A DNA stretch of 64,000 bases from Hyphomicrobiaceae bacterium (GTDB lineage Bacteria; Pseudomonadota; Alphaproteobacteria; Rhizobiales; Hyphomicrobiaceae): positions 23,676 through 87,675 of the forward strand of contig JAEUMD010000017.1 in the NCBI GenBank assembly GCA_016793635.1, given 5' to 3'. Of this stretch, positions 30,445 to 50,521 are shown one piece after another (within the stretch, counting starts at the first letter, position 1; each line of letters starts with the position of its first letter). The notes beneath the pieces are model-generated. The model made no database searches. It saw nothing but the letters and a program-made list of their open reading frames with translations, and was not told the DNA's origin. Made by a program: the position numbers and the translations under genes.

Positions 30445-30780
30445 GAGGCGCTTGGCGGGCTACACAATGCAAGTTCCAGGGCGAGCTGGGCGTCGCGCGG
30501 CAGATTAATTCCGCGAAGCGGTTAACGTTCGCCGCCGGCTGCGTCCGCCTGCCGAAACGGCAACGATAATCTCAGCGGACGAGCGGCGGCCCGGCGCTGG
30601 CACGCGCCTTGCGGTATCGTCCGAGAGGCCCGTCCGCGAACGACGTGCGAGCCGCCTCCTCGTGCCGCGACGGGCAGTTCCGCCCCGTAACGGCACACAT
30701 CAGCCGGCATGATGGACGAATGCCACAGGATGCAGGGCGGTCCGCGGCCCGATCGGCCCGCGCGCCGCGAAAGGATCGAT

Positions 30781-32952: not shown

Positions 32953-32975
32953 AGCACGGAGCGCGAGGCAGGGTG

Positions 32976-34310: not shown

Positions 34311-34475
34311 AGCCCACGAGAGATGAAGCGCAGATTCCTCCGCCGCCAGACGAACTTTCTCTGCGGGCGCCCGCGACCCGCCCCTCGTCCGCGCCCCACG
34401 AGCGGCCTGGATAATTGGCCGCTGGCGCAGTAAGAGTTGTGCGTTGGTGTGAGCCCCGTAACCTTGCGTACCAGG

Positions 34476-35291
34476 ATGGCACAAGAATCGTCGACCGGCG
34501 CCGCTTGCGATGACCCGGAGCCGCTGGCCCGTGTCGACGGCTGGGGCATCAACGTCGCCACGCTCGACGGTGCCGTCGCAGCGGTCATAGAAGTGGCAAG
34601 CCGAGCCGAGCCGGCGGCGTTGTTCACGTTGAACCTCGACCATCTCGTCAAGCTGCGCAACGACCGGTGTTTCTGCCGGGCTTACGAGCGGGCTCGCTTC
34701 ATCACCGCGGACGGCGCCCCCATCGCCCAGCTTGCCCGGACCCAGGCGCCCACCATCGAGAGAACGACAGGTGCAGACCTCGTCGTACCGCTTGCGGCAG
34801 CGGCGGCCGAGCGCGGCCTGCCCCTCTATCTGTTCGGCTCCGCACCGGGTGTCCTCGGCGAAGCGGGCCGGCGCCTCGCCGAAAACACCGCAGCACCTCT
34901 GGCGATCGTCGGCAGCGCCGCGCCACCGATGAATTTCGACCCCGAAGGCCACGAGGCGGACGAGGCCATCGCGCGGATTGCGTGCTCGGGCGCCCGCGTC
35001 TGCCTTGTCGCTCTCGGCGCACCGAAGCAGGAGATTTTCGCCGCCCGTGCCATCGAGCAGGGCGTGCCTGCGGTTTTCGTATGCGTTGGTGCGGCACTCG
35101 ATTTCATCGCCGGTGCGCAGATGCGGGCGCCTCGCGTCATGCAACGCAATGGTCTCGAATGGCTGTGGCGTCTGGCCAACGATCCCCGCCGCCTTGCTGG
35201 TCGGTATGCGCGCTGCGCCCTACTGTACGCGCAGCTCCTGCTGCTGCCCGTGCGCCCCGCCGACGCCGTGGCGCGCACCAATCAGATGTGA
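34476..35291 (+). CDS. WecG/TagA/CpsF-family glycosyltransferase
   Basis: 271 residues from ATG 34476; a TTG at 34437 is the alternative. Family motifs are clear: TLNLDHLVKLRNDRCFCRAYERARFITADGAPI, the catalytic Asp/Thr region RTTGADLVVPLA, LYLFGSAPGVLGEAG, VCLVALGAPKQEIFAA, and VFVCVGAALDFIAGAQMRAPRVMQRNGLEWLWRLANDPRRLAGRY. These enzymes (GT26) transfer ManNAc-type sugars to lipid-linked intermediates. It lies within the polysaccharide cluster and likely adds an early sugar after the priming transferase. Confidence 0.9.
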   Translation: MAQESSTGAACDDPEPLARVDGWGINVATLDGAVAAVIEVASRAEPAALFTLNLDHLVKLRNDRCFCRAYERARFITADGAPIAQLARTQAPTIERTTGADLVVPLAAAAAERGLPLYLFGSAPGVLGEAGRRLAENTAAPLAIVGSAAPPMNFDPEGHEADEAIARIACSGARVCLVALGAPKQEIFAARAIEQGVPAVFVCVGAALDFIAGAQMRAPRVMQRNGLEWLWRLANDPRRLAGRYARCALLYAQLLLLPVRPADAVARTNQM

Positions 35292-35372
35292 ATGAGCGGC
35301 TCCGGGAGACGCGATGACCACGACCAGCGTCATCCTGGCGCGAAAGCCAATCGCAGCCTCGATCTGTACGCC

Positions 35373-36485
35373 ATGACCAGGCCAAAGCTTCTGTTCTACA
35401 CCCATGCGCTGCTGGACGGCGGCGCCGAACGGCTTTGGGCGTGCCTCGCCACGGAGTTCAAGGCACGCGGCTACGACGTGGTTTTCGCGCAGGACTTCGT
35501 GGCGGACGACAACGCCGCGAGCCTCGATGCATCGATACCGATGGTGACACTCGGTTCCGGGCACATCCGGGCTACCTGGCGACTGGCACGGCTGCTAGCA
35601 ACCGAGCGCCCGGACGTTGCGCTCTCCGCAATAGGTGGCTGCAATACGAAGCTGCTTCTTGCCCGCGCGCTCTCCAATTCGGGCACGCGGACGATCATCA
35701 GCTATCACGGATACAACGAGTGGCAGACCGGCTGGCTGAGCTGGATGGCCTACGCGGGCCTGCCGCTGATGTCGCGCTACGCCGCACGCACGGTCGCCGT
35801 GTCGAATGGGCTCAAGGACGCGCTCGAGCGAGACTGGCACGCCGCAGCAGCCCGGACCGTCGCGATCCACAATCCCGTGTTCTTCCCCGCAGCGACACCG
35901 GTTCCGAAACGCGACGAACTCCGCACGCGTGACAACGTCGTACTCGCCGCCGGCCGCCTCGTCACCGAAAAGGACTTCGCAACTTTGATCCGCGCCTTCG
36001 CGCTGGTGAAAGCGCCGGGAGCGCGCCTCGTGATCCTCGGCAAGGGGCCACAGCGCGCGATGCTCGAAGCGGAGATCATGAGGCTAGGACTGTTTGGCCG
36101 CGTCATGCTCGCCGGTTATGTCAACGAACCGTGGCCGTACTACCTCGCCGCCAAGTGCTTCGCCATCTCCTCGCTCTCCGAGCAGTTCGGCAATGTCGTC
36201 GTCGAAGCGATGGCGCACGGTCTTCCGGTCGTCGCGACCGCCTGCACAGGGCCGGTCGAGATTCTGGCCAACGGACGCTACGGCCGCATCGTTCCGCCTG
36301 GCGACGAGAGATCGTTGGCACAGGCCATCGACGCGGCGCTGGCCGATCCGGGCGATCCAGCCGCGCAGCGCGCGCGTGCCGACGAATTCTCAATTGCCGC
36401 GCGCGTGCCGGCCTACATGCGATTGATCGAAGATGTCGTCCAGAGCAGCGGCGGCGCACCCACGGTTCTTGAGAGTCGCGATTAG
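35373..36485 (+). CDS. Family 4 glycosyltransferase
   Basis: 370 residues from ATG 35373; 27 upstream in-frame codons look non-coding. GT-B fold: N-terminal Rossmann half (KLLFYTHALLDGGAERLWACLATEF), IISYHGYNEWQTG, VAVSNGLKDALE, then the C-terminal half with AAGRLVTEKDFATLIRAFA, LVILGKGPQRAMLEAE, VMLAGYVNEPWPYY and the EX7E-type nucleotide-sugar region SEQFGNVVVEAMAHGLPVVAT. A retaining enzyme using NDP-sugar at the inner-membrane face; donor unknown. Probably the last gene of the exoP-like to GT4 operon. Confidence 0.9.
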   Translation: MTRPKLLFYTHALLDGGAERLWACLATEFKARGYDVVFAQDFVADDNAASLDASIPMVTLGSGHIRATWRLARLLATERPDVALSAIGGCNTKLLLARALSNSGTRTIISYHGYNEWQTGWLSWMAYAGLPLMSRYAARTVAVSNGLKDALERDWHAAAARTVAIHNPVFFPAATPVPKRDELRTRDNVVLAAGRLVTEKDFATLIRAFALVKAPGARLVILGKGPQRAMLEAEIMRLGLFGRVMLAGYVNEPWPYYLAAKCFAISSLSEQFGNVVVEAMAHGLPVVATACTGPVEILANGRYGRIVPPGDERSLAQAIDAALADPGDPAAQRARADEFSIAARVPAYMRLIEDVVQSSGGAPTVLESRD

Positions 36486-36562
36486 CGCATTCGAACCATC
36501 GCTTAGAGTGCGGTTCACGCCTTCGGCAAAGCAGTGAGCGTTCCCACCCGAGCGATCGCACC

Positions 36563-37759
36563 CTAATCCATCATCCGACGCTGCAAAGCGCGATGCGTCT
36601 CGTAGCATTTCCCAAGCTGAACCTCGGGGCGGAAGTCCGCGATCTCACCAGCGACACCTTCCGGCGTCACGAGCCCAGACCGCTGAAGTCGATCGATCGC
36701 GACGAAGGCATCCGCCAGGCGTTCCGCCATGTCGTCGGCGTCATCCGAGCGCGGCACGAGCTGGCCGCTGATACCATCGACGATCACACTTTCAAGCTGC
36801 GGTAGATGAATCGCGCAAACCGGCCGCCCGACGCCGAGCGCCTCGAGCACCGAGAACGGCATGCCCTCGAACTCAGACGTGAGGATGCCGGCGTGCACGC
36901 GAGCCAGCACGTCAGCGACGCCTTCGGCGGACTTGAAGCCGTGCAATACACTTCGCTCCGCGATTTGCCCGAACTCGGCAAACCTGTGCGGATCACTCGT
37001 CCCCATGTAATGGAACTCGACGCCCGGGATCTTTCTGGCCAGCCGCCCGATCGTCTGGAACATCAGCGACGGCACCTTGAAAAGATCGAGCCGCCCGGCG
37101 AACGCGACGCGGAACCCCTCGTCCGCCGGCAACGGCTGCGGCGAGAACGTGCGCGCATCGACCCACGTCGAGAGGGTCTCGATCTTGCCGGCGTGGGCCG
37201 GGTAGTCCTTGCGCACGCGCTTCGTGGTGATGGAGTTGACACACTGGAAGCGATCGCAGAGGCGCACCGCCAGCCCTTCGTTGACGTGATGAACGAAGCG
37301 ATAGCGCTTGAGCAGGGAATCCATTTGCAGCTTCGGCACGCCTTCGGAGTGGAGCCGCTGCACGAACGGAACACCCAAGGCACGCACCAGCGCCGAGAAC
37401 TCGACGCGCTGAAGATCGATGCTGGTCGGGCGCTCGCGGAGGACGCTGCGCACGGCCGTGAAATACCGGATCAGCCCTTGAAAAAAGCGGAAGTTGAGCG
37501 ACTGGCGCACCGACGTCGCCGCCTCGCGCGACTGCTCATCCGCGATGCGAAGAACCGGAATAAAATCGTATGGCCGGCCGCGATGGAAGTGACGTGACAC
37601 ACGGCCGAGCTCGAGATCGCCGACAGTGTCGATGCCGATCATCAGGAACGAGAAATCGTCGGGAAGAAACGCGATCTCGTCGCGAATGAAGGTCTCGATG
37701 CCACCGACCTTGGTTCCGCGCGGATCGAAGGCGTGAACAACGCAAAGCCTATGTCGCAT
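36563..37759 (-). CDS. Family 4-like glycosyltransferase
   Basis: 398 residues from ATG 37759. N-terminal half with CVVHAFDPRGTKVGGIETFIRD, typical of GT4 acceptor domains. C-terminal half has VAFAGRLDLFKVPSLMFQTI, VEFHYMGTSDPHRFAEF, VLHGFKSAEGVADVLARVHAGILTS and the donor-site acidic pair in SEFEGMPFSVLEALGVGRPVCA. It is convergent with the previous GT4 gene and follows the flippase gene by 96 bp on the minus strand. It likely adds one sugar of the repeat unit. Confidence 0.85.
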   Translation of the reverse strand: MRHRLCVVHAFDPRGTKVGGIETFIRDEIAFLPDDFSFLMIGIDTVGDLELGRVSRHFHRGRPYDFIPVLRIADEQSREAATSVRQSLNFRFFQGLIRYFTAVRSVLRERPTSIDLQRVEFSALVRALGVPFVQRLHSEGVPKLQMDSLLKRYRFVHHVNEGLAVRLCDRFQCVNSITTKRVRKDYPAHAGKIETLSTWVDARTFSPQPLPADEGFRVAFAGRLDLFKVPSLMFQTIGRLARKIPGVEFHYMGTSDPHRFAEFGQIAERSVLHGFKSAEGVADVLARVHAGILTSEFEGMPFSVLEALGVGRPVCAIHLPQLESVIVDGISGQLVPRSDDADDMAERLADAFVAIDRLQRSGLVTPEGVAGEIADFRPEVQLGKCYETHRALQRRMMD

Positions 37760-37855
37760 GCCGCCTCCCCGCCGGGCGTACATCCGCCAGCTCACGCCGC
37801 AAAGAGCTGTTCGTCCAGAACCACATCTTGCGCCACGACGGCGCGGCGCAATCGC

Positions 37856-39298
37856 TCATGCGAGCCGCCTTGCGGCATCGCGCACCATCTCCAGCGTGCC
37901 GCGCCGAGCGTCTGGATAGAGGGCCGCAAGCGCCGCCGCATAGACGAGTACGCCGGCCGCAACCGAGATCGTGATCGAGGCGACGTCGGGCAGGCGCGGC
38001 AGGCTCATGACGGCAGCCGACATGACGACCGTCGCGCCGAAGAGCTTCGCCATATCCAGCGGCGGAACTGTGTAGCGATGCATGCGCCAGGCGATGGCCG
38101 ATGTCACGAGCAGACTCGCCAGCGCTCCGGCGGCAGCGCCCGTGATGCTGCCCGACAGCCCTCCGACGGCTAGCCCAACAACAGCACCGGTCAACGAGGC
38201 GGCGGCATCGAAGATGTCGTTGCCGAGCGGAATGACGGTCTGCTCGCTGAGGAGGAAGATTTGCTCGGCGAAGTGAATCCGGTACACTCGAAAGGCTCCG
38301 GCGAGGATCGACATCGGCAAGATGTTCATGGTCATGGCTTGGAACGGCTCGGCGACCGTGAGGCGGACCAGCGGACCGGCGACCAGCCACAGGCCAGCCG
38401 AGGCAGGCAGCAGGGCGGCCAGGAGCAGAACACCGTTGCGTTCGAGCTGCTGCTGTCCCGCCTCGATCCCCCGCTCGCGTGCACGCCGCATGGCGAGCGG
38501 GAAAGCGCCGGCCGTCACCAGCATCGCGGCGAACGACATGGCGCGATAGCCGAGCATCCAACCGACCGTGATGAGACCTACCGCTGCGGCGCCGGATTGC
38601 TGCTCGACAACGAACCGAAGGCCGTTGATGGCCAGCCAGATGAAAACTCCGCCGCCGAGCAACGGCAAGCCGTAGCGAATCGCGGCGCGGACCATGGCGC
38701 GGTCGAGCGCGAAAGGGTTGCGGCCAAACTCGAGCCGCAGCGCCGCGACGGCAATCGCAAGCGCTTGGGCAATCGTATAGCCCCACAGGATCGCCGAGAC
38801 GCTGCCGCCGACCACGAATGCCAGCAACGCACCGAACGCAAGGCCGAGCACGGGCCAGATGATCTGGAGAGATGTGTAGGTCAGGGTATCGTGCTCAGCT
38901 CGCGCGCGATCCGTGAGATGTGCCACCACTCCGCGGGTGACGATGTGGGCGAGGCTCGCCAGAATGACAGGCACGGTCCACGCCGTCTCGACAGCGCCCG
39001 CGAGAGCGAGCACGAGCACGATGGATGCAACCGCCGATGCCGCCAGGACCGCGAGCTCCGTGTCGAGGAACCGCCGCCGATCGGCATCCGCTCGGGTCGC
39101 GTCGTGGTAGCGCATCGTGTAGAGTGAAAACCAGAAGAGAGTAGCGGTATACGCGAGCTCCTGCGCCGCCATGACCAGCGCGAACACGCCGAGGCTCGCT
39201 GGCGACAGGAAATGCGTCCACACCAAAATCGAGACGAACTGGAAGACCGGGCCGATGACCTGAGCAGGCAGGTAGAGCAGGGTCTGTCGAAGAAGCAT
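37856..39298 (-). CDS. Wzx-like polysaccharide flippase (MOP superfamily)
   Basis: 480 residues with 12-14 predicted helices. The start LLRQTLLYLPAQVIGPVFQFVSILVWTHFLSPASLGVFALV is the classical first pair of helices of Wzx/PST proteins. The basic loop RRARERGIEAGQQQLERNG and the second half of six helices complete the MOP fold. It would flip undecaprenyl-linked repeat units across the inner membrane. Followed by a GT4 gene on the same strand, it forms a second transcription unit of the polysaccharide cluster. Confidence 0.85.
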   Translation of the reverse strand: MLLRQTLLYLPAQVIGPVFQFVSILVWTHFLSPASLGVFALVMAAQELAYTATLFWFSLYTMRYHDATRADADRRRFLDTELAVLAASAVASIVLVLALAGAVETAWTVPVILASLAHIVTRGVVAHLTDRARAEHDTLTYTSLQIIWPVLGLAFGALLAFVVGGSVSAILWGYTIAQALAIAVAALRLEFGRNPFALDRAMVRAAIRYGLPLLGGGVFIWLAINGLRFVVEQQSGAAAVGLITVGWMLGYRAMSFAAMLVTAGAFPLAMRRARERGIEAGQQQLERNGVLLLAALLPASAGLWLVAGPLVRLTVAEPFQAMTMNILPMSILAGAFRVYRIHFAEQIFLLSEQTVIPLGNDIFDAAASLTGAVVGLAVGGLSGSITGAAAGALASLLVTSAIAWRMHRYTVPPLDMAKLFGATVVMSAAVMSLPRLPDVASITISVAAGVLVYAAALAALYPDARRGTLEMVRDAARRLA

Positions 39299-39731
39299 GT
39301 GCCTCGAGGCCCTCTCGGAGCCGCAAATCGCGCAGCGTGAAACGCCAACACTACCCCGCTAGAGCATCATTCGACCGCACGCAATCGACTGACGCGACAG
39401 GCGCTAGCACGAATGACGATGCCGTGGATCGCCGGGCCGGGAGCGACAGCCTTTGCGAAGGGCGGCCGCGCCTGCGTCTCCCACTCCACAAATAGCGCAC
39501 TAGCAAGCGCCGCGCCCGCGGACCAACAGCCAAGACCGCATCCCGGCGAAGTTTGTCGGCATTCGGTTAACGCGGCACATGCGGCGCAACGGGCGCAACG
39601 TGGCGTTAACGTCTTGCGGTCCGGGGCTGCGGACCTGCCGCAAGGTTGGGTAATATGTCACCCGCCCCGCGCCACGGCGACAGCGCGCCAACGCTAAACC
39701 GGCGTGTCCCCGCCATCACCGAGTCCATTCG
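39299..39731. other. Intergenic region between divergent polysaccharide genes
   Basis: 433 bp between the flippase and the beta-propeller gene. It contains two GGTTAACG/CGTTAACG elements (about 39566 and 39604) and otherwise no supported gene. It probably carries both promoters. Confidence 0.4.
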
Positions 39732-41273
39732 ATGCGCATTGGCCTGATCGTCAGCTCGGCCGAGTTACCCAGTTGGACCGGGGTGCTGTTCGCGCACATC
39801 GCTGCGAGCGGGCAGCATGAGGTTGGCCTCGTCGCTGCACCAAGTCGGACGACGCCTAAGAGGGGGGCCGCGTCCGCCTCACTCGACCGTCTCCAGGCGC
39901 TGGAGCGCCTGGGCGCGGGGCGCCACCGGGGCTGGCTCATCGACGCCATGGCAACGCCTAGCGCGGCCGCATCGCTTCCGCACCTCTTGCACGGCGCACC
40001 CATGGACCTCGCGCTCGACCTGCTCGGCGATGGCTCGGGACAGAGCACGCCGCATTCCGCGCGAACCTTGACGCCTCTACTCGACGGAGCCCCCGTCGCC
40101 GCCGGCCTGTGGCCCGCGCTCCTTTCGCGCCGCGCTCCGGTGATCGCGGTGCACGATAGCGCAAGCGGTGCGGTCTCCACCCTCGCGCTACCTGCGCTCC
40201 ATGCGCCACATCGCCTCCTCGAAAGCGCCGACGCGGTTCTGTCCCACCTCGTCCGCTGCCTCGCCGACGCTGCGCTCTCCGTTGCTTCGACGGGAGCGCT
40301 ACCGCACTTCGCCTCGACGCCTTTGCCGCGATACGCGGCTGCGCCCGGCACGGTGTCGTTGGCCGCGATGGCGAGCTTTCTCGCGGCGCGGATGACCGCT
40401 GCGATCGCCGTGCGAGGTCAGCGGCTGTTGAAACAGGAGCCCGTCTGGCAGGTCGCGTGGCGGCGCGCCGAGACGCGCCTCCACGTCCCCCAAACGCTCG
40501 ATGCCGTCGCCTACCGGCGCGTTCCGGACGACAGCCGGCGCTATTACGCCGACCCGTTTCTCTTCGAGCACCAGGGCACCTTGCACCTGTTCGTCGAAGA
40601 GCTGCCCTCGTCGAGCGGTCGCGGCGTCATCTCTCACGTCGCGTTCGGCAACGACGGCCCAATTGGTTCGCCGACGCCTGTGCTGACCGAACCACATCAC
40701 CTTTCCTACCCGCAGGTGTTCGCGCGCGACGGCGAGGTTTGGATGCTACCCGAGGCCGCTCAATCCGGACGGCTCACGCTCTATCGCGCGGCGCCCTTTC
40801 CGTCTCGCTGGGTTCCCCACGCCACGCTGATCGCGGAGCCCCTTCATGATGCGACGCTGTTTGAGCACGGCGGCCGGCTCTGGATCACCGCCGCGACGGT
40901 CGTTGGCGCGGCTTCGTCGTGGGATACGCTGTCGATCTGGTCGGCGGAACGGCTCGCCGGACCTTGGTCACCTCATCCGAAGAACCCGGTTCTCGTCGAT
41001 GCCCGCGCCGCGCGGCCCGCCGGAGTTCCATACGTCAGCGAGGGCGTGTTGTGGCGCCCGGCCCAGGATTGCCGTCACGGCTACGGCGCAGGGCTTTCGC
41101 TCTGTCGCGTCACCGAACTCTCGCCGACGGGTTTCGCGCAAGAGATCGCCGCAACGTACCGCTTCGATTCCGCAGCGGGCTTCGGCGGCTTCCACACGAT
41201 CAACCATACGCGGGAGCTCGAGGTCATCGACCTGATTGCGCCACGCCTCCCGCGCGCGCACACGGAAACATGA
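39732..41273 (+). CDS. Formyltransferase-like plus beta-propeller protein (GINT1-N-like)
   Basis: 513 residues. The N-terminal ~230 residues start with MRIGLIVSSAELPSWTGVLFAH, reminiscent of formyltransferase/Rossmann-like domains, but lack obvious catalytic motifs. The C-terminal ~270 residues look like a five-bladed propeller of the GH43-like kind: RRYYADPFLFEHQGTLHLFVEE, SYPQVFARDGEVWMLPEA, HDATLFEHGGRLWITAA, GAGLSLCRV. This combination resembles bacterial proteins annotated with a glucosamine inositolphosphorylceramide transferase N-terminal domain. It may bind or modify the polysaccharide made by this cluster. The Asp in YADPF is the usual active-site position in GH43 propellers. Function is inferred from fold and context. 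Confidence 0.65.
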   Translation: MRIGLIVSSAELPSWTGVLFAHIAASGQHEVGLVAAPSRTTPKRGAASASLDRLQALERLGAGRHRGWLIDAMATPSAAASLPHLLHGAPMDLALDLLGDGSGQSTPHSARTLTPLLDGAPVAAGLWPALLSRRAPVIAVHDSASGAVSTLALPALHAPHRLLESADAVLSHLVRCLADAALSVASTGALPHFASTPLPRYAAAPGTVSLAAMASFLAARMTAAIAVRGQRLLKQEPVWQVAWRRAETRLHVPQTLDAVAYRRVPDDSRRYYADPFLFEHQGTLHLFVEELPSSSGRGVISHVAFGNDGPIGSPTPVLTEPHHLSYPQVFARDGEVWMLPEAAQSGRLTLYRAAPFPSRWVPHATLIAEPLHDATLFEHGGRLWITAATVVGAASSWDTLSIWSAERLAGPWSPHPKNPVLVDARAARPAGVPYVSEGVLWRPAQDCRHGYGAGLSLCRVTELSPTGFAQEIAATYRFDSAAGFGGFHTINHTRELEVIDLIAPRLPRAHTET

Positions 41274-41982: not shown

Positions 41983-42447
41983 TCAGCCGAACATGCGGGC
42001 GAAGAAGCCCTTCTTTTGCGTAACCGCCGGCGGCGGCGCGACCTCGCTCGCCGCATCCGTCATCACCTTCTCGAGGGTCTGGTAGGTGGTGACCCAGGCC
42101 GCCTTGACATCCGGCGTGAAGGCATCGCCGAGACCTTTCTCCAGCGTCCAGATGAGCGCTTCGCCGACCGGCTTGTACTGCTCTGCCGTGACGCCGTAGC
42201 CGACGTGCTTGCGCCCGAGGTCCTGCACCGCCGGAATGATCTTCTCGACCTGGTGCAGATTGTTGACCGCAGTCCCGATCATGCTCATCAGCTTCATCTT
42301 CTGCTGTGACATGTCGTTCGGGAACAACGAGCGCACCTTCGGTGCAATTTCAAAGAGGCGGCCGTAGAAGAGCTCGGCGGCCTGCGGTGCGATCGGCTCG
42401 ACCAGCTTGAAGCTGTCCTGAACCAGCTTGACCTGATCTGGTGTCAT
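41983..42447 (-). CDS. Single-domain globin
   Basis: 154 residues from ATG 42447, with an AAGGAGACG ribosome-binding site. The fold is that of Vgb/flavohemoglobin-type globins: Tyr at the B10-like position in LFYGRLFE, Phe CD1 in RSLFPND, an E-helix MKLMSMIGTAV, proximal His81 in LGRKHVGYGV and a long H helix. Such globins bind O2 or NO and, with a reductase, detoxify NO or deliver O2. No flavohemoglobin reductase domain is attached. The tail after residue ~138 (APPPAVTQKKGFFARMFG) is an unusual Pro linker plus a basic-aromatic end that could touch a membrane or partner. It is last in the four-gene electron-transfer operon. Confidence 0.88.
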   Translation of the reverse strand: MTPDQVKLVQDSFKLVEPIAPQAAELFYGRLFEIAPKVRSLFPNDMSQQKMKLMSMIGTAVNNLHQVEKIIPAVQDLGRKHVGYGVTAEQYKPVGEALIWTLEKGLGDAFTPDVKAAWVTTYQTLEKVMTDAASEVAPPPAVTQKKGFFARMFG

Positions 42448-42491
42448 GAAAGTCGTCTCCTTGTATGTGCGTTCATTAGAGCCGGTTGCGA

Positions 42492-43064
42492 TCACTCGGG
42501 CATGGGAATGCGAATGACGACGCCGCCCATCACGTCTCCCATCTTGAAGTCCGTGCGCGGCGTGTCCTTGTGCTCGTTGTGGCAGCTCACGCAGGCCGGA
42601 GCGATCGCGGTGTCGGCATAGACGGCTGTGAAGTACTTCTTCCCGCCGAGCGCCTCTTCACCGTAGAAGTTCTGCCCCTTGTTGGCGGCGACGAACTCGA
42701 GCCCCTTCTTCTCCAAATCCGTGCGCGGGGCGTTCTGCTTGTTGATCGGCCATACGGAGAGCAGCGAGTAGGAGAACTTGTCGGTCTTCTCCGCCACCAT
42801 CTCGGCTCCGAAACGGAACATCTGCGCCGGCAGCGGCAGCGTCTTCTCGTCCTCGTGATGTTCGCTCGCCTTGATGACCTTCTCCTTGACGGCGAGACGG
42901 TTGACGACCTTGCGCGTGTAGACGGTGCGATCCGACTCCATCACCGAATGCAGCATGTCGGCGACATCCTTGTATTCGAGGCCTTTGGCCGTCGCGGCGG
43001 CGCCGACGAGCAGGATGCCGAGGCTCGAAATGCTGGCGATCTTGACGGGTGCAGAGATCTTCAT
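42492..43064 (-). CDS. DUF3365 (Tll0287-like) monoheme c-type protein, exported
   Basis: 190 residues from ATG 43064, preceded by AGAGGAGAAG. A signal peptide or anchor (VKIASISSLGILLVGAAATAKG) precedes a Tll0287-like sensor/heme domain. One CXXCH is present near the end in PACVSCHNEHKD, followed by FKMGDVMGGVVIRIPM, the standard ending of the family. These proteins are periplasmic and bind one heme c; roles proposed in the family are redox or gas sensing. It lies between the multiheme cytochrome and the globin and is probably a soluble partner of the multiheme protein. Confidence 0.85.
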   Translation of the reverse strand: MKISAPVKIASISSLGILLVGAAATAKGLEYKDVADMLHSVMESDRTVYTRKVVNRLAVKEKVIKASEHHEDEKTLPLPAQMFRFGAEMVAEKTDKFSYSLLSVWPINKQNAPRTDLEKKGLEFVAANKGQNFYGEEALGGKKYFTAVYADTAIAPACVSCHNEHKDTPRTDFKMGDVMGGVVIRIPMPE

Positions 43065-43098
43065 GACTTCTCCTCTTGTTGCCTGAACTTGGTGTGGA

Positions 43099-44541
43099 TC
43101 ACTCGGCCGCCTTCTCACCGCTTGCTCCCTTCCCCTCTCGCTCCTTGAGGCGGTTCATGACCCACTGGATGCTTTCGACGCGGACTGAGAGGCGTCCGGT
43201 GAAATTGCTTTCGACGAGCTTGCGGTCCGCCAACGCATCGATGGCGAAGCCGAGCCCGTGGCAGTTCATGCAGACGGAACGGATCATCTTCTCGTTCGGC
43301 CTGAGGTTGGCGTTCTGATTGTGATTGACGAGCAGGTGCTCTTCGTAGGTGTCCGGGTTCTCGTGTGTCTCGCGCGGCATGTGGCACGTCGCGCATGAGA
43401 CGCCGGTGCCCTTGCCGCCTGCCCCCGTACTCTCCGCCTCGAACAGCTTGTGATGCGGGGAGCCGATGTAAGCCTTGGTGTGCTTGTCGTCGTGGCACGA
43501 CATGCACGCCGTCACCTCGGCTTTGCGCGTGTCGAAGGCATGCGCGCCATGGCATGTATTGCAGGTGAGTTCGCGGCCCGCCGCCTTTGATTGCATCGGC
43601 AGACGGGCGAGCTCAGGCCGCATCGGCGTCAGCGGTTTGTCCTTGAAGAGGCCGAACAGGCCCTTCGACTCCGACAGGAGCCCATCGGCGAGGCGCATGC
43701 CATGGCGCCCTTGCGTGAAGGTCTTCACCTCCATCGCGTGACATGACTTGCAGGCGTTGTGGTCAGGCTTTTCGATCCACCGCGCGGCGATCGTGTCGGC
43801 GGTCTTGGCGCCGGGAGCATGACATCCCGAGCAATTGACGCCCGCCTTGGCGTGCGAGGTGGCCAGCCAGTCGGCCATGATCGCGCCGTCGCCGGCATGC
43901 CCGCTCGGAGCATCGGCGGCAGAGGCGGACGTGATCGGCTTTTTGTCGGACGCCGCAACCGGCGGTTTGGCACGGAGCGGGACCACGGCGTTGTCCGCGG
44001 TATCTTTCTCGTTAGCGTGCTTCTCCAGGAAGTCTTCGTATAGGGCCCGGTTGTCGTGGTAGTTGTGGCAACCCGCGTCTGCGCACGTCGTGAAGGCCAA
44101 GCCCTTGTGCGACGGACGTTCCGTGCCGATCTTCTCGTGACACAGAGCGCAGTAGTCGGTCGGCAGCGTCACGCCCATGTCATGGGTGACCTCCGGCCTG
44201 TGCTCGGTATGGCAGGTGACACATTCGGTAGCCGCCAGCTTCTTGAGTCGGTCGGCGTTGCGCGGGTCCGTGAACTTCTTCTTCGGGTGGCTGTCCTTCG
44301 AAGCCTTGAGGTCGTCGCCGTGACACCCGACGCAGGCCTCCTGCATTGCATCCTTGCTGGCGAACGGCTTGGTGTGACAGGCGTTGCAGGCAAGCTCGAT
44401 CTGATGGTGACCGCTCGTCGTCTTCCCGATGAGGAGATTGGCGCGCGGTGCTCCGCCGTGGAACATTCCGGCGAGCAGAATTCCCGCGCCCGCGAAGGTC
44501 ACCAATGCCCAAATTGTCCAGAGCGTCGCTGTCCGGCCCAC
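43099..44541 (-). CDS. Membrane-anchored 11-heme cytochrome c
   Basis: 480 residues. An N-terminal helix (TLWTIWALVTFAGAGILLAGM, 6-26) anchors the protein with its body in the periplasm. Heme-binding sites: CNACH (52), CVGCH (70), CVTCH (107), CALCH (131), a CX4CH variant CADAGCH (153), CSGCH (237), CKSCH (264), CNTCH (327), CMSCH (346), CATCH (383) and CMNCH (424), i.e. ten CXXCH plus one CX4CH. A ~70-residue Ala/Ser/Lys-rich linker (about 165-230) divides the protein into a five-heme and a six-heme module. Numerous extra His can supply distal ligands. It starts 10 bp after the reductase-cytochrome b fusion gene, its likely electron donor. The closest general class is the NapC/cytochrome c3-like multiheme proteins; the terminal acceptor is unknown. 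Confidence 0.9.
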   Translation of the reverse strand: MGRTATLWTIWALVTFAGAGILLAGMFHGGAPRANLLIGKTTSGHHQIELACNACHTKPFASKDAMQEACVGCHGDDLKASKDSHPKKKFTDPRNADRLKKLAATECVTCHTEHRPEVTHDMGVTLPTDYCALCHEKIGTERPSHKGLAFTTCADAGCHNYHDNRALYEDFLEKHANEKDTADNAVVPLRAKPPVAASDKKPITSASAADAPSGHAGDGAIMADWLATSHAKAGVNCSGCHAPGAKTADTIAARWIEKPDHNACKSCHAMEVKTFTQGRHGMRLADGLLSESKGLFGLFKDKPLTPMRPELARLPMQSKAAGRELTCNTCHGAHAFDTRKAEVTACMSCHDDKHTKAYIGSPHHKLFEAESTGAGGKGTGVSCATCHMPRETHENPDTYEEHLLVNHNQNANLRPNEKMIRSVCMNCHGLGFAIDALADRKLVESNFTGRLSVRVESIQWVMNRLKEREGKGASGEKAAE

Positions 44542-44551
44542 TGTCGCCCTT

Positions 44552-46582
44552 TCAGTAGAAGTAGACGCTGAGCACGTGCATCGCGAGCAGCAGCGGCAGC
44601 GGCCAGAATGCGACGAGGTGCACCCAGAAGCTCGCCGACTTGAGGCTTGCTGCTTGCGCCGCCCCGCCGCCGAGCTTGTGCTCGTTGGCGGTGGCGAGCG
44701 CCACGGCTGCGCCGCCGAGCAGCGTTGCGAGGAAACTCGCCATCAGCCAGAAATTGAGATTGCTGCCGAGGCGGAAACCTGAGTGCGCGATGAGGGCGAT
44801 GACGGCCAATGCGCCGATCAACACATGGACGATGCGCCAGATGTCATAGCTGCCGAGCCGCAAGGGCCGCACACGCTTGCGCAGTGAAAGCGCGGCGGCG
44901 AGCGTCGCCAGGGCAAGCAGCGTGTATCCGCTCACCTGCTTCCAGAAGCCGTCGAGCCACAGCGTCTCAGCCAAGCCGACGCTGGCGATGGATGGCGAGA
45001 GAGGGATGCGCGGAAGCAGCACTGTCGCGGCGGCAAGAACACCAGCAACGGCGGCCGCAACGAGCATCGGCTTTCGTCCCGCGACCGGTTCGCGAGCGGC
45101 GGCGGGGGCACCAAGCAGCTCGTCGATGTGGACCCGACACGAACCGCAGACCGTCGATGCGCCCGTGTCGCGCTTGACGTCGTCGAACGTCGCCGCGCCG
45201 AGTGAGATCGCATCGCCGATCTGGCCGCGCGTAACGCCCGTGCAATTGCAGACGGTCGCCGTGCGCGGCCACTCCCTGACACTCTTCGGCGCCTGCTCAC
45301 GCCAGATGCGTCCGCTGCGACGGAAACGGAACAGATCCCACGGATAGAGCCTGCGCCCTGAGCCGATGGCTTCCTGAACCAAATTGATCTCTGGCCAATC
45401 GCCGATGGCCATCGCACCGACGAGCCGAGATCGCTTCAGTACCAGGCAGCGGTAGATGCCGGCCTCCGCATCCTCGAATCTGACGGTGCTCACATCGGTC
45501 CGTTGGGCGATCTGCTCCACGTCGCCCATGCTGAACACGTCGACACCGATGACCTTGAGCTTGGTGGACGCAACAGTGCCGCCGTAGGTGCGCGGTGTTC
45601 CAGCGATCTGGCCAGCGACGACCAGCGCCTGCTCGAAGCCAGGGCCGATCAGGCCATGGACCGTATCGTCGAACTCGATGCATTCACCGGCCGCATAGAT
45701 GTCCGGGTCGGCGGTGCGCATCTGCGCATCGACCTTGATGCCGCGGCCGACCGGCAGGCCGATCTCTCGCGCCAGCTCTATGTTCGCGCGAATGCCGGTG
45801 CACACGATCACCGTGTCGCATTCGAGCCGGCTGCCATCCTGGAAGCTCAATCCGGTGACGCGATCCTCGCCATCGATCGACGCGACGCTGGAGAAGGTGC
45901 GGATCTTGACGCCGAGCTTCTCGATGCTGCTCGCGAGCAGGCGGCCGGCGCGCTCGTCGAGCTGGCGGGGCATCAGATGGGGGCTGTGCTCCACGACCCA
46001 GGTCTCGATGCCGCGGTTCGACATGCCGCGCGCGGCCTCGAGCCCGAGCAGGCCGCCGCCGATGACGACCGTGCGGCGCGACCGCAGCGCTCGCGCGATC
46101 AACTTTTCAACGTCGTCGACACTGCGGAATGTGAAAACGCCGGCGCGCTGGTGTCCCGGAATCGGCGGCACATGCGCGCGCGAACCGGTGCAGAACACGA
46201 GCTTGCTGTAGTCAAATTTCCGCCCGGAGCTGACCGTGACGGTGTGCGCCTCGCGATCGACGTCGACGACACTCTGATCGGAGTAGAGCAACACGCGACC
46301 CGGCCCCAGAAAGCCAAGCGGCTGCATAACCTGGCCGATCTGCGCATCGCCTGCGAGCAGCGTCGACAGTTTGACTCTATTGTAGGGCAGCCATCGCTCT
46401 GCATTGAGCAGAACGCAGTCGATCCCCGCACGCGAAAGCTCTTGAGCGGTGCGAATGCCCACCGGGCCACCGCCGATAATCACAACCTGCGCGCCGGATT
46501 GCGATTGTCGATGCCCGGACGTCGAGCCTGTCGCGGCAACGTCCGTTTCACGTTCGCTTTCGAGCGTGACATGCTTGTTCAT
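44552..46582 (-). CDS. NirB-like FAD/NAD(P)H reductase with [2Fe-2S] site fused to a di-heme b-type membrane domain
   Basis: 676 residues. FAD-binding VVIIGGGPVGIRTAQELS (33-50); NAD(P)H-binding TVVIGGGLLGLEAARGM (171-187); second FAD contact DIYAAGEC (294-301). This is the NirB/NasB N-terminal reductase type. A BFD-like [2Fe-2S] domain follows with Cys445-X-Cys447 and Cys479-X2-Cys482 (VCNCTGVTRG, CGSC). Instead of the ferredoxin-nitrite reductase half there are five hydrophobic helices (about 505-525, 550-567, 583-600, 611-630, 652-673). Two of them carry His pairs spaced 14 residues apart, His586/His600 and His655/His669, the spacing of transmembrane b-heme ligation in NarI/cytochrome b561-type bundles. 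So electrons could pass from NAD(P)H via FAD and Fe-S to two hemes b across the membrane. First gene of the operon. Confidence 0.85.
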   Translation of the reverse strand: MNKHVTLESERETDVAATGSTSGHRQSQSGAQVVIIGGGPVGIRTAQELSRAGIDCVLLNAERWLPYNRVKLSTLLAGDAQIGQVMQPLGFLGPGRVLLYSDQSVVDVDREAHTVTVSSGRKFDYSKLVFCTGSRAHVPPIPGHQRAGVFTFRSVDDVEKLIARALRSRRTVVIGGGLLGLEAARGMSNRGIETWVVEHSPHLMPRQLDERAGRLLASSIEKLGVKIRTFSSVASIDGEDRVTGLSFQDGSRLECDTVIVCTGIRANIELAREIGLPVGRGIKVDAQMRTADPDIYAAGECIEFDDTVHGLIGPGFEQALVVAGQIAGTPRTYGGTVASTKLKVIGVDVFSMGDVEQIAQRTDVSTVRFEDAEAGIYRCLVLKRSRLVGAMAIGDWPEINLVQEAIGSGRRLYPWDLFRFRRSGRIWREQAPKSVREWPRTATVCNCTGVTRGQIGDAISLGAATFDDVKRDTGASTVCGSCRVHIDELLGAPAAAREPVAGRKPMLVAAAVAGVLAAATVLLPRIPLSPSIASVGLAETLWLDGFWKQVSGYTLLALATLAAALSLRKRVRPLRLGSYDIWRIVHVLIGALAVIALIAHSGFRLGSNLNFWLMASFLATLLGGAAVALATANEHKLGGGAAQAASLKSASFWVHLVAFWPLPLLLAMHVLSVYFY

Positions 46583-47457
46583 GCGATTGCCTCACCCCTT
46601 CGACGGTGAGGTAGACGGCTCGAGCACCTCGGCTCGCCACGGCGACGCAAGCCATGGCGTGGAACAAGCTCGTATTGACGTAGAGATTCGATGCATGCCG
46701 CCCGCCTCCGGTGAGAGTCGCGCGCATGGCGCGACAGCTCGAGAATCCCGAGTTCCGAAAATCAATTCGGTTTTGAGGCATCGTTGCCTGCTCGTTGCCG
46801 ACCCGGCGCTGGATCTGCGCAGCCGAAGCCACGCATTTGCAACGCACCATGCTTCGCAATCCTCGTGCCAAGATTGCACATTGGCCTAAGCCGCCGCGTC
46901 GGCACGATTTTTCAGATTCTCCGTCCGCATGAGAAAATGGCTTCGATCGGTACTTGTGCATTGCACCACAGCTTCTGCCCGTGTTTTCGGCGCGAGATCG
47001 CCTGAAAGGTTAGGCGGAATGCCGCCAAGTGCGGCAGTCGCGAAGTTCGCATCCACGTTCGGCCCGCCGTCAAACGAACTTCGCAATCAGAACCACACCG
47101 GCAACTCCACGGGTCCACCGTCCCCTTGGATTCAAAAGGTCGCTGCTGCGCTCGCGGCCAAGTGGTGGCGAACTTCTGACCCTGGACACGAGAACGCAAA
47201 CGGCTCAGTTCCGCGTCGAAACCCGTGATGTTCGCTGATGAATGGGCGATCTGTCTGCGCGCAAGCGATGGCAATGCGAGGCACGAAGCCGTGCGCAACC
47301 GCGCGAAGCACGCGCGCCGAAACGCTACGCGCCGACGCAGCGCGTCCTCGTCCAACCCACGCCGCAACCGCATAGCCCTCGTCGGGGCGGGTCGCATGAA
47401 GCTGCGCAGGTTACAAAAAGACGCTGCAAACTGCAGGGCGGAGCATCAGGTCTTCGG
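46583..47457. other. Long intergenic region upstream of the reductase-cytochrome operon
   Basis: 875 bp between the fusion gene and the end of bphP. Open frames on both strands (for example 46912-47397 minus, 46929-47228 plus) have no family motif and no good ribosome-binding site. TCAATTCGGTTTTGA at about 46768-46782 is a small dyad (TCAA-N7-TTGA) that is not an FNR site. The promoter of the operon must be here, but I cannot pinpoint it. Confidence 0.4.
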
Positions 47458-49986
47458 TTACTGCAACATGCTGTAGAGCACGTCCCGCAAGTCGTCTGAT
47501 GTGAACGGCTTCCGTAGCATCGGTACCTTCTTCATCCGATCAGGCACCATGGCGCTGTCCCCGTAACCTGTAGCGAATGCAAACGGCACCCCGAGTTTTG
47601 CAAGCTCATCCGCCACGGGCAGCGATGTGCCGTAACCGAGATTGATGTCGAGGATCGCTATATCGGGTCGCTGCTCTGCGATGAGGTGCAAGGCATCCGC
47701 GCTTGTGGCAACGGTGGAGACGGTTCGGGCGCCGAGACACGACAGCATTTCTTCTGCGTCGAGTGCAATGACCAACTGGTCCTCCACGACCAATATGCGG
47801 GCAGCGCCGAGATCGAGCGGGACGCGGGCAGGGCGGATCGCCAGCTTCGTCTTCACATCATCGGGCGCCGTGGGCTTGGAGAGGAATTTGGCCGGAACTA
47901 CGAGGCGGGCTTTCACTCCATCCCGGGCATAGTCCACCTCACTCATTCCGCCGAGATCGAACGGAATGCTCCGAGTAAGGAGCACGCTGCCGAAACCGCG
48001 GCTGTCCGGTGCGCGGACAGGAGGCCCGCCTTCTTCCGACCAGACGAGTTGGCAATCACCTGCGTCGTTCAAGCTCGACCCGATTCGAAGCCGGCCAGAC
48101 GGCTGAGACAGAGCGCCGTATTTCGCGGCATTTGTGGCAAGCTCGTGGATCACCAAGGCCATGACCGAATAGGCTCGCGCATCGAGGTTGATGTCCGAGC
48201 CGGTGATCTCGACCTGGCTTTCGGGATAAGGCGACAGTTCTGCCTGAAGAAGGGTTCGCAAGGATCCCCCCCCATCGGATCGGACGATCTGATCGTGCGC
48301 GAAGGCGAGCGCCATGATGCGCCCTTTGAGGCTGTTCGCGTAGGCCGCGACGCTCTCGGAACTCTCGACCGGCCTGTTAACAAGAGACTTGATGAGGGCG
48401 AGAATGTTCTTGACCCGATGGTTGAGCTCCTCGTTGAGGACCTGCTGGCGTGCATCTGATTTCCGACGCTCGGCCGACAACTGCTCGCTCTGTTCGAGTA
48501 GCACATCACGCAGGCGTACCTGGATTGCGGACGCGGTTGCCAAATCATCAGCCGACCAAGGGTGCGATTGCCGTTCGACGAGCTGCCGCCAGATTGCAAA
48601 GCTCTTGCGGGGCGTCAGGCGCTCTCCTAGCGGCCCGACCTCATATTGCTTTTGCGGATCACCCGCCCATTCGACGGTTCTGATCTGCTCCTTGCGAAAG
48701 AAGAGCAGGTAATCGCGCGGCGCCTGAGACAATGGGATCGCGAGCATACCCGCGGCTTCGTTGGCATAACTCGCCGCAGCGGGATTGCTCACCGAAAGAT
48801 TATCCGTTTGGAACACCTCGCTGCCGCCTTGCGAGGTGAGCAGAGTCGCGATCGCGGGGATGGCGGAGGGCGGCGGCGTCGCGCCGGCGGATGTCCATAT
48901 CCCGCCGATCCAGAGACCAACACCGTCGCAGGGCAACAGCTCCTGGATCTGGCCGAGCCTGCGTCGCAGAAACAAATCGACGGGCTCGTCCGGCGACTTG
49001 GATTTGTTCAGATCATCGAGAGCCTGGCGCGCCTTCTTGAAGGTCTCGAAGCGTCGATGATGATGTGTCGAGGTCAGATGCAGCGAGAAGAAGTCGGCGA
49101 ACACCTCAGCCGCCACGCGCAGGGGCATGGACATCACCCGCGGGGCATAGTGATGGCAGGCGATGAGTCCCCACAGCTTGCCCTCGACAACAATCGAAAG
49201 CGACATGGATGCGCCCACCCCCATGTTTCTCAGATACTCGAGGTGGATCGGGGAAACACTCCTGAGATGCGCGTAGGTCAAGTCGAGCGGCCTCGCAGAG
49301 TCGCGGTCGCTTGGCGAGAGGGGGTAGGCGTCTCCAGCAGCGCTCGAAATAATTCTGATGGTGTTCTCGAGATAGAGCGTCCGGGCCTGCTGCGGTATGT
49401 CGCTTGCGGGAAAGTGCTGCCCGAGAAACCGCTCCAGATTCGATCGCTTGGCCTCGCCGATGACCTTCCCTGAACCATCCGGGTCAAAGCGATAGATCAT
49501 GACTCGGTCGTAGCCCAGGATCGCCCGAAGGTATCGCGGAACCTGGACTGCCAATTGCTCGATCGTGGGTAGCCCGCGGGTTCTCGCGATGATTTCACGG
49601 ATCAGCGTCGTCGGATCGGGGCGAGCCCCCGGGGAAACGGGTTCGAATTCGATGATGGCGGCACCGGCATGGCGATGCACACTCACGTCGAACATGCGAC
49701 CTGACGCGGCCAGTTTCCACGCCAGCAGCAGTGCGGGTCGCTTTGGATCGGACGATTGTGAGGACGCGTTACGCAATGCGTGTGCGGCATGCGATCCCAA
49801 GTATTCGCTGAGGCGTTGACCGATGACCGCGCCCCCCAATCCGAGCATATCCGGCGCGTTGGTCGAAATGCGCGTGATGACTTCCATGTTGTCGTCGCAC
49901 GCGACGAGACACCCATGTGGCTGGATACTGCCCGGCGTGTGGATCGGCTCCTTATCGCACGATGTAAGATCGACATCAGGCGACAT
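47458..49986 (-). CDS. bphP: Bacteriophytochrome, HWE histidine kinase with C-terminal receiver
   Basis: 842 residues from ATG 49986, which overlaps the end of bphO; an open extension upstream is within bphO and not used. PAS domain with biliverdin-attaching Cys10 in LTSCDKEPIHTPGSIQPHG, GAF domain with HFPASDIPQQARTLYL and LRSVSPIHLEYLRNMGVGASMS, PHY domain with the tongue motif TPRKSFAIWRQLVER. An HWE/HisKA_2 kinase follows (LNEELNHRVKNILALIKSLVNRP; HELATNAAKYGALS; GFGSVLLTRS), then a receiver domain (ILVVEDQLVIALDAEEML; DIAILDINLGYG; LRKPFTSDDL). It senses red/far-red light through biliverdin made by the adjacent bphO. The coding strand has a G8 run (48266-48273) in the kinase part. HWE kinases often feed PhyR-type stress signalling. 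Confidence 0.95.
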   Translation of the reverse strand: MSPDVDLTSCDKEPIHTPGSIQPHGCLVACDDNMEVITRISTNAPDMLGLGGAVIGQRLSEYLGSHAAHALRNASSQSSDPKRPALLLAWKLAASGRMFDVSVHRHAGAAIIEFEPVSPGARPDPTTLIREIIARTRGLPTIEQLAVQVPRYLRAILGYDRVMIYRFDPDGSGKVIGEAKRSNLERFLGQHFPASDIPQQARTLYLENTIRIISSAAGDAYPLSPSDRDSARPLDLTYAHLRSVSPIHLEYLRNMGVGASMSLSIVVEGKLWGLIACHHYAPRVMSMPLRVAAEVFADFFSLHLTSTHHHRRFETFKKARQALDDLNKSKSPDEPVDLFLRRRLGQIQELLPCDGVGLWIGGIWTSAGATPPPSAIPAIATLLTSQGGSEVFQTDNLSVSNPAAASYANEAAGMLAIPLSQAPRDYLLFFRKEQIRTVEWAGDPQKQYEVGPLGERLTPRKSFAIWRQLVERQSHPWSADDLATASAIQVRLRDVLLEQSEQLSAERRKSDARQQVLNEELNHRVKNILALIKSLVNRPVESSESVAAYANSLKGRIMALAFAHDQIVRSDGGGSLRTLLQAELSPYPESQVEITGSDINLDARAYSVMALVIHELATNAAKYGALSQPSGRLRIGSSLNDAGDCQLVWSEEGGPPVRAPDSRGFGSVLLTRSIPFDLGGMSEVDYARDGVKARLVVPAKFLSKPTAPDDVKTKLAIRPARVPLDLGAARILVVEDQLVIALDAEEMLSCLGARTVSTVATSADALHLIAEQRPDIAILDINLGYGTSLPVADELAKLGVPFAFATGYGDSAMVPDRMKKVPMLRKPFTSDDLRDVLYSMLQ

Positions 49987-50521
49987 AGGCCAAATCCCTC
50001 GCGACTGAGAGTGCGACGGAAAACGACGCGATCGCCCCCTCCACCGCCTCGTCCATGTTGATGTTCGATGCCCGCTCCAAGGCGGACAGGAATGCCGGCC
50101 AATTCGCCCGGTTCTCGACAAGCGTTTGGAGATGGCGGGCGCCGTGCTCTGGTCCGAGACCAAGGCGGCGAGCCGAACGCTCGACCATCGCCGCTCCCAC
50201 AATGGACCCTTCTATGACATAGGCGGCGCCAATCCAGGCGTCGCCACGAAGCACGGGTGATGGCGGACGAAGCGACGATGTATCGGCCAACCCGAGGTCA
50301 AGACAATCCCGGCAAAGTGCATTTGCAATACAGGTTGGCAAATATCCCGCCAACTCACACGATCGCGCGCGCACCTGGGGCTCGATGGTGGAGCGGAGGG
50401 TTGCGACAGTCGTGACGTACCTAGTGTAATTGCCCAGCGTCGCGAGATCGCCGAAGCACGCATCCAACTGCCGATGCAGTGCGCTCGTCGCGGAGCGCAA
50501 AACCAAATGGCGTGACGGCAT
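49976..50521 (-). CDS. bphO: Heme oxygenase for biliverdin synthesis
   Basis: 181 residues. Heme-ligating His in LRSATSALHRQLDACFGDL (N-terminal helix), the distal helix WIGAAYVIEGSIVGAAMVERSARRLG and WPAFLSALE near the end are the BphO-type heme oxygenase pattern. It opens heme to biliverdin IX-alpha, the chromophore of the phytochrome. Its last codons overlap the bphP start (GCC TAT GTC GCC TGA containing ATG TCG), giving translational coupling. No sigma-EcfG promoter is seen upstream. Confidence 0.9.
   Translation of the reverse strand: MPSRHLVLRSATSALHRQLDACFGDLATLGNYTRYVTTVATLRSTIEPQVRARSCELAGYLPTCIANALCRDCLDLGLADTSSLRPPSPVLRGDAWIGAAYVIEGSIVGAAMVERSARRLGLGPEHGARHLQTLVENRANWPAFLSALERASNINMDEAVEGAIASFSVALSVARDLAYVA

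Follow-up and report, generated by a model that had tools for sequence, protein, structure and literature searches.

What are electrons drawn from NAD(P)H used for when four neighboring genes seem suited to carry them across the membrane and into an 11-heme cytochrome? This question is raised by a gene set in the window, by which we mean the whole 64,000-nucleotide stretch analyzed here (contig JAEUMD010000017.1 of a Hyphomicrobiaceae bacterium). The original prediction, made from the sequence alone, had described at this place a reductase fused to a membrane domain, an anchored multiheme cytochrome, a Tll0287-like protein and a globin, and had left the electron acceptor open. Four open reading frames on the minus strand at 46582-41983 confirm the gene set, its place and its order. 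Alignment with relatives corrected two starts: the Tll0287-type frame spans 43118-42492 and begins at ATG 43064, and the globin frame spans 42495-41983 and begins at ATG 42447. The four genes, called here the unit, are as follows:

44552..46582, minus strand: reductase, 676 amino acids; NirB-like FAD/NAD(P)H module, Rubredoxin_C, BFD [2Fe-2S] and a five-helix membrane domain
43099..44541, minus strand: 11-heme cytochrome c, 480 amino acids; N-terminal anchor, 10 CxxCH and CADAGCH
42492..43064, minus strand: Tll0287-type (heme-c Cache, DUF3365) monoheme protein; PF11845, N-terminal hydrophobic export-type segment
41983..42447, minus strand: single-domain globin; PF00042, with B10 Tyr, E7 Gln and F8 His

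We conclude that the unit belongs with nitrate assimilation, a link which the original prediction had missed. Our preferred reading, which we put forward tentatively, is that it exports cytoplasmic electrons while nitrate is being assimilated, possibly for defence against nitrogen oxides, nitric oxide (NO) first.

Conservation of the unit and its association with nitrate assimilation

In a whole-genome search the reductase was present in 10 of 103 genomes of the host family, the window's own included (nine in full, G019 in two pieces), and in one of 384 further genomes of the class (G445, from another order). All ten relatives, nine from the host family and one from the other order, carry the four genes in the same order, with one reductase cut by a contig end. 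The closest of them, G078, whose reductase is 95% identical, has the window's downstream genes, and the remaining nine show, by eye, other neighbors as far as their contigs reach.

When the GTDB species genomes were scanned with a profile of the cytochrome, 387 stretches encoding relatives were obtained, the best and closest 80 of which were kept as loci. By their record labels, many of which are those of metagenome-assembled genomes, these loci belong to Alpha-, Beta- and Gammaproteobacteria, Nitrospirota, Poribacteria, Verrucomicrobia, Myxococcales, Phycisphaera, Dadabacteria and Bryobacterales, and carriers with named records that are not such assemblies include Filomicrobium insigne and Hahella. 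The membrane domain lies 5' and the Tll0287-type gene (tll) 3' of the cytochrome, on the same strand, in 80 of 80 loci; in L077 the reductase is split over two reading frames and several other reductases are cut by contig ends. A globin was found in 59 loci, in 56 of them after tll on the same strand and in three (L099, L133, L134) before the reductase. In four loci that have no single-domain globin (L100, L106, L128, L140), genes for a truncated globin (PF01152 for L128) and for a reductase of the FNR type lie 3' of the unit, for example at L128:9445-10817, as if a different globin took the slot. Among evenly drawn Gammaproteobacteria the cytochrome is present in 27 of 369 genomes, at 28 loci, whose 1.5 kb flanks hold the membrane domain in 26, tll in 26 and the globin in 14. 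Whether the four families keep company in other genomes was one of two points on which the original prediction could fall; they do, in all ten relatives and among the 80 loci.

Some lineages also have a small one-heme class I cytochrome gene 3' of tll, before the globin where one is present. It was detected in 14 of the 80 loci by a motif filter (L090, L091, L092, L093, L095, L102, L106, L110, L116, L123, L124, L128, L131, L143) and in 12 by clustering (which adds L083, L098, L100, L140 and L144), with 19 in the union; one member is a Cytochrom_C match. A gene for an Alginate_exp-type outer-membrane barrel, which may be a porin for the transported anion, stands near the unit in L104, L118, L125, L137 (9303-10544), L139 and L141.

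Recurring neighbors of the 80 loci are an NMT1_2 nitrate-type binding protein, a permease, an ATPase, NarK-type transporters and a NasT-like ANTAR response regulator. With NCBIfam, ntrCD scores above its cut-off, ntrB, though the best match, stays below its own, as do NarK and NasC, and no match was obtained for the NrtA-like and NasT-like proteins, to which Pfam gives NMT1_2 and ANTAR, respectively. A nas/nrt-type gene is present in the flanks of 33 of the 80 loci, a count made with score thresholds of our own setting and without matched control loci (NrtA 19, NrtB 18, NasT 16, NasS 10, NasA 7, NirB C-terminal half 5, NirD 5 and NarK 5); the place of L134 among the 33 rests solely on a uroporphyrinogen methyltransferase. 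Whole nas clusters enclose the unit in wider stretches of three loci, where several gene names are given by resemblance and some were checked by profile. L150 has on one strand NasT, the unit, NrtA, B and CD, an MFS transporter, a phosphatase-kinase gene, NirB, NirD and NasA; in L154 NasT and NasS come before the unit, and NirB, NasA and a siroheme synthase-type gene after it; in L149 the unit is followed by NasT, NasS, NrtA, B and C, a flavoprotein and a nitrite-reductase-type gene. Beside NarK, several nas-linked loci carry a gene in which a PP2C phosphatase is fused to a protein kinase (L150:12937-14634, and also L094, L109 and L125).

The association is also seen between whole genomes. In the host family an NrtA orthologue is present in 9 of 10 genomes with the unit and in 6 of 93 without it (table 9/1/6/87; Fisher 1.9e-8, kinship ignored), and in Gammaproteobacteria NrtA is present in 23 of 27 genomes with the cytochrome and in 43 of 342 without it (table 23/4/43/299; Fisher 1.7e-15, kinship ignored). 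NasA-like proteins were found in 24 of 27 and 146 of 342 of the same genomes, counts which may include NapA-like matches and which for two of the genomes rest on just two candidates apiece; for these reasons NrtA serves as our main test. NasT is present in 10 of 10 relatives. The window's own genome is the sole one of the ten unit carriers in the family without NrtA. Neither NrtA nor NasT was found in it, and its NasA adjoins a NirB that is truncated where contig C4 ends, so both may lie in the gap. The link with nitrate points to nitrogen oxides, rather than sulfur compounds, metals or extracellular partners, as candidate acceptors.

We also considered the unit as a substitute for NirB and rejected this as a rule: NirB reaches at least residue 770 of 817 in 33 of 42 unit genomes, in one piece in 30 and in two pieces in three (G489, G502, G511). 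Among the nine others, G491, G492, G496 and G500 show only a flavoprotein resembling the N-terminal part of NirB, and a siroheme-type nitrite/sulfite reductase (NIR_SIR) is complete in the corresponding family genomes G015 and G003.

Cofactor sites of the four proteins

The first protein had been described as a FAD/NAD(P)H reductase with a [2Fe-2S] site and a membrane domain with two His pairs, and both domain matches and His pairs agree. Pfam matches are Pyr_redox_2 (E 2.7e-61), Rubredoxin_C (E 2e-18) and Fer2_BFD (E 1.3e-14), and the NirB profile TIGR02374 matches residues 33-493 (E 3.1e-117) with 393 bits, below the curated cut-off of 578, the match ending at profile position 468 of 794. 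The reductase is like NirB in having the FAD/NAD(P)H module, Rubredoxin_C and the BFD [2Fe-2S] domain in NirB's order (profile positions 1-468), but the siroheme/4Fe4S half, NIR_SIR, for which the Pfam scan of the reductase gave no match, is replaced by a membrane domain with four invariant His. The [2Fe-2S] ligands C445, C447, C479 and C482 are present in 62 of 62 sequences covering these positions. At residue 198, which bears on the choice between NADH and NADPH, the 63 sequences vary, with Glu (34), Gln (12), Asp (9) and His (7).

The membrane part has five transmembrane helices (AlphaFold2 model, mean predicted local distance difference test (pLDDT) 91.3) and no Pfam match at E 0.1; in the Foldseek and VIA-align comparison of the reductase all 50 matches listed are flavoproteins, so the fold of the membrane domain stays outside that comparison. 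In the model H586 and H600 lie in the third helix and H655 and H669 in the fifth, with a spacing of 14 residues in each pair, and all four are invariant in 63 of 63 aligned reductases. With the flavin domain in the cytosol, the third and fifth helices would be parallel, and H586/H655 and H600/H669 should sit at matching depths. Whether the His pairs face each other inside the membrane, the second point on which the original prediction could fall, was judged by conservation and helix topology, and both are compatible with it. Proteins of the NOX/ferric-reductase type have two His pairs on two parallel helices and pass electrons from cytosolic NAD(P)H/FAD outward. The membrane domain of the unit may share this arrangement and differs in that its cytosolic module is N-terminal, of NirB type and provided with a [2Fe-2S] cluster. 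In L142 (2182-2787) and L145 (6460-6990) the membrane domain is encoded by a small gene of its own, immediately 5' of the cytochrome, which suggests that its fusion to the flavin module is not obligatory.

As predicted, the cytochrome has a single N-terminal transmembrane helix and 11 heme motifs, of which ten are CxxCH and one is CX4CH (mean pLDDT of the AlphaFold2 model 81.1). The same set is present in 80 of 80 cytochromes, with no motif between hemes 7 and 8. Among 70 aligned sequences 22 His are invariant, 11 in the heme motifs and 11 elsewhere, and a twelfth extra His (175) is conserved at 93%. The 11 spare His would suffice for bis-His ligation of every heme, which is not a proof of it. 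A c3-like five-heme N-terminal part is followed by hemes that appear related to those of HAO, ONR and NrfA: a single alignment stretch pairs hemes 6-9 with motifs two, three, five and six of the HAO-like 6h5l, and the final four motifs of Kuenenia HAO 4n4j align with hemes 8-11. In HAO the fourth motif holds the catalytic heme, and the catalytic heme of NrfA and ONR has CxxCK. The fourth motif of 6h5l (CDMCH) has no counterpart in the colinear alignment, so that the cytochrome, although apparently like HAO, octaheme nitrite reductase and NrfA in its C-terminal motifs, differs from them in lacking this heme motif and in gaining the c3-like part and a membrane anchor. A Foldseek search of the PDB gave no match for it at E 0.001, nor did a search of a plasmid collection. 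Since the HAO-type catalytic heme motif is missing and 22 invariant His amount to two per heme, the cytochrome is probably a conduit and not an enzyme. The suggestion of the original prediction that the multiheme protein may itself be catalytic loses ground for these reasons and because the set of 11 motifs is fixed.

The third protein was correctly recognized as monoheme and Tll0287-like (PF11845, E 2.6e-21, one CxxCH). It shares with the Tll0287/DUF3365 heme-Cache proteins this family, the single CxxCH, kept in 80 of 80 loci, and an export-type N-terminus. A Cys/His axial ligation has been described for the heme of Tll0287 in PMC12889525. The Tll0287-type proteins of the unit differ in this point, as no Cys beyond residue 45 was found outside CxxCH in any of the 80, which makes the Cys axial ligand unavailable; the window's own protein has no Cys at all apart from its CxxCH. 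A PDB search with an 11-sequence alignment gave no match at E 1 and was insensitive, as it missed the known Tll0287 structure 5B82. For the fourth protein the globin assignment holds (PF00042, E 9.9e-16). Tyr B10, Gln E7 and His F8, helix labels which we take over from the FHb/Vgb family, occur in 35/35, 35/35 and 34/35 aligned sequences, respectively. These three residues are the rule for NO-dioxygenase-like bacterial globins, and the globin of the unit follows it. Its tail, KKGFFARMFG-like, is kept in the Hyphomicrobiaceae relatives.

The upstream leader and other genes of the window

ANTAR proteins of the NasR type bind two hairpins whose hexaloops have A first and G fourth and which are exclusive with a terminator, as described in PMC3369931, and control of Paracoccus nasA by NasT through leader hairpins is described in PMC5424462. 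We searched for such hairpins within 420 nucleotides 5' of the reductase in 68 upstream regions (67 loci and the window), and obtained one candidate in the window:

46776..46815, minus strand: tentative NasT/ANTAR-type tandem hairpins, hexaloops AGCGCC and AACGAT, ~195-235 nucleotides 5' of the reductase start

At four settings tandem hexaloop hairpins were found in 1, 3, 7 and 15 of the 68 regions versus 0, 0, 0.2 and 0.95 expected from dinucleotide shuffles, 15 being the count at the loosest of the four, for which 80 coding stretches gave none; another setting gave 3 of 73 regions versus 0.04 expected. In 10 of the 68 regions, versus 0 of 408 shuffles, a hexaloop hairpin overlaps an intrinsic terminator that has a T run. 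Some lineages appear to have a NasT-type antitermination leader. For the window itself, where the first hairpin of the pair at 46776-46815 is similar to that of L071, the evidence is suggestive only. Covariation of the second hairpin was set aside as circular, the rows having been chosen for pairing. Rfam gave no leader family in L083, L096 and L108, and in the window only tRNA.

About 0.9 kb 5' of the unit, on the same strand, lies a gene for a bacteriophytochrome-type histidine kinase of the HWE kind (47458-50202, minus strand), whose domains are PAS_2, GAF, PHY and a receiver. It was rejected as a member, because neither it nor the open reading frame at 49976-50521 is matched in the loci of the ten relatives. 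The window also holds surface polysaccharide-type genes at 30709-41273 (a Wzz chain-length protein, a glycosyltransferase and a GINT1_N protein) and a PhyR-type general stress response regulator (56289-57092, minus strand).

Possible roles of the unit

The cofactor sites of the conserved unit would fit the path originally proposed, from NAD(P)H over FAD and the [2Fe-2S] cluster to two b hemes and on to the c hemes. Electrons would pass from NAD(P)H to FAD and the BFD [2Fe-2S] cluster, then to a b heme held by H586/H655 on the cytosolic side and to another held by H600/H669 on the periplasmic side, and from there into the anchored 11-heme cytochrome as a bis-His wire. Outside, the Tll0287-type heme protein, possibly joined by the small class I cytochrome in some lineages, would use these electrons or pass them on, and the putative targets are nitrogen oxides, NO first, that escape when nitrate and nitrite are reduced. 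The globin would remove NO in the cytosol, probably as a dioxygenase which gives nitrate back to the pathway, and it may draw electrons from the same flavin module. The direction and continuity of this path, its topology and the heme ligation we infer from sequence and models. Electrons moving outward run with the membrane potential, so that such a transfer would cost proton-motive force.

Defence against nitrogen oxides is favored because the nearest tested analogue protects against NO. In the nas operon of Bradyrhizobium (narK-bjgb-flp-nasC) the single-domain globin Bjgb and the flavoprotein Flp are reported to protect against NO arising from nitrate assimilation, so this operon, too, ties a globin and a NAD(P)H/FAD protein to nitrate assimilation, under NasT control (PMC4724949). 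It differs in that Flp is described as cytoplasmic and as serving both NasC and the globin, and in that no membrane b-heme domain, multiheme cytochrome or Tll0287-type protein belongs to that operon. The unit can be regarded as a variant of this known globin-flavoprotein accompaniment. Its parts are of known kinds, while their assembly, an HAO-like scaffold without the fourth heme and the link with nitrate appear new; no description of the unit was found in the open-access literature, subscription papers lying mostly outside that search. From the original interpretation the conserved unit, the electron path and NO as the likely theme of the globin are retained, and the catalytic multiheme protein is not. 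A bolder proposal, which we consider doubtful, is that of a previously undescribed membrane complex in eight bacterial phyla, as judged by record labels. A di-heme b domain would there connect the NADH half of nitrite reductase with an HAO-derived wire that no longer has the catalytic heme; under control responsive to nitrate, the wire would lead to a heme-Cache protein as periplasmic nitrogen-oxide-reducing site, with the globin guarding the cytosol.

Several observations weigh against an exporting defence against nitrogen oxides. No nas-type gene is present in the flanks of 47 of the 80 loci, many of which are on short contigs, and 21 of 80 are without a globin in the fetched flank (L082 stops 154 nucleotides after tll). 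The 80 loci are the closest of 387, the co-occurrence tables ignore kinship, and the window's own leader has no overlapping terminator with a T run. With NirB present in 33 of 42 unit genomes, most of these do not need the unit to reduce nitrite. In PMC12889525 the one stand-alone Tll0287-type protein tested bound NO weakly, whether or not its ligand Cys was present, and was interpreted as a redox protein.

If the Tll heme is unreactive, the unit would be a pure outlet, which passes NAD(P)H electrons to periplasmic carriers (the Tll0287-type protein and the small class I cytochrome) for redox balance or to feed another periplasmic enzyme during nitrate use, the globin being a separate NO scavenger. 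We judge this somewhat unlikely. It agrees with invariant His sufficient for bis-His ligation of all hemes, with the small cytochrome gene after tll (14, 12 and 19 of 80 loci by filter, clustering and union) and with the redox-like appearance of stand-alone Tll0287-type proteins in PMC12889525, but leaves unexplained why the unit tracks nitrate uptake genes in particular and why a globin is so frequently attached. Catalysis by the 11-heme protein itself, as a periplasmic nitrite, NO or hydroxylamine reductase akin to NrfA, ONR or HAO and fed by NAD(P)H, is improbable, given that the fourth CxxCH of 6h5l has no counterpart, that 80 of 80 proteins have ten CxxCH and one CX4CH with none between hemes 7 and 8, and that 11 spare invariant His are available for 11 hemes. 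Some doubt about a plain wire is left: His175 is conserved at only 93%, so that one heme could have an open side, and catalysis at a site other than that of HAO is a minor possibility.

Still less probable is a periplasmic sensor, in which the heme-Cache protein and the wire would report the nitrogen-oxide or redox state to transport or regulation and not detoxify. In its favor, Cache domains have known sensory roles, and PMC12889525 reports tight NO binding by a membrane-associated heme-Cache protein. Against it, the stand-alone protein of that paper acted as a redox protein, and among the neighbor clusters no signalling output gene is constant in the unit. Extracellular electron transfer or metal reduction would suit a multiheme cytochrome on the outer face, two hemes whose profiles weakly resemble those of MtrC-type and OcwA proteins, and the Alginate_exp-type barrel gene. 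We nevertheless regard it as very improbable, as this gene is near only 6 of 80 loci, clusters of at least four loci in the 7 kb flanks contain no multiheme outer-membrane partner, and the linked genes are nitrate genes.

If export of electrons for defence against nitrogen oxides is the true role of the unit, nitrate assimilation, which is usually described as cytosolic, would have a conserved periplasmic electron-exporting arm in many environmental bacteria, and a group of stand-alone heme-Cache proteins would obtain a role. The cytochrome would then show how a catalytic multiheme scaffold could turn into a wire, and the proton-motive-force cost of a route from NAD(P)H to the periplasm would need explaining. 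The named carriers Filomicrobium insigne and Hahella make the unit open to testing.

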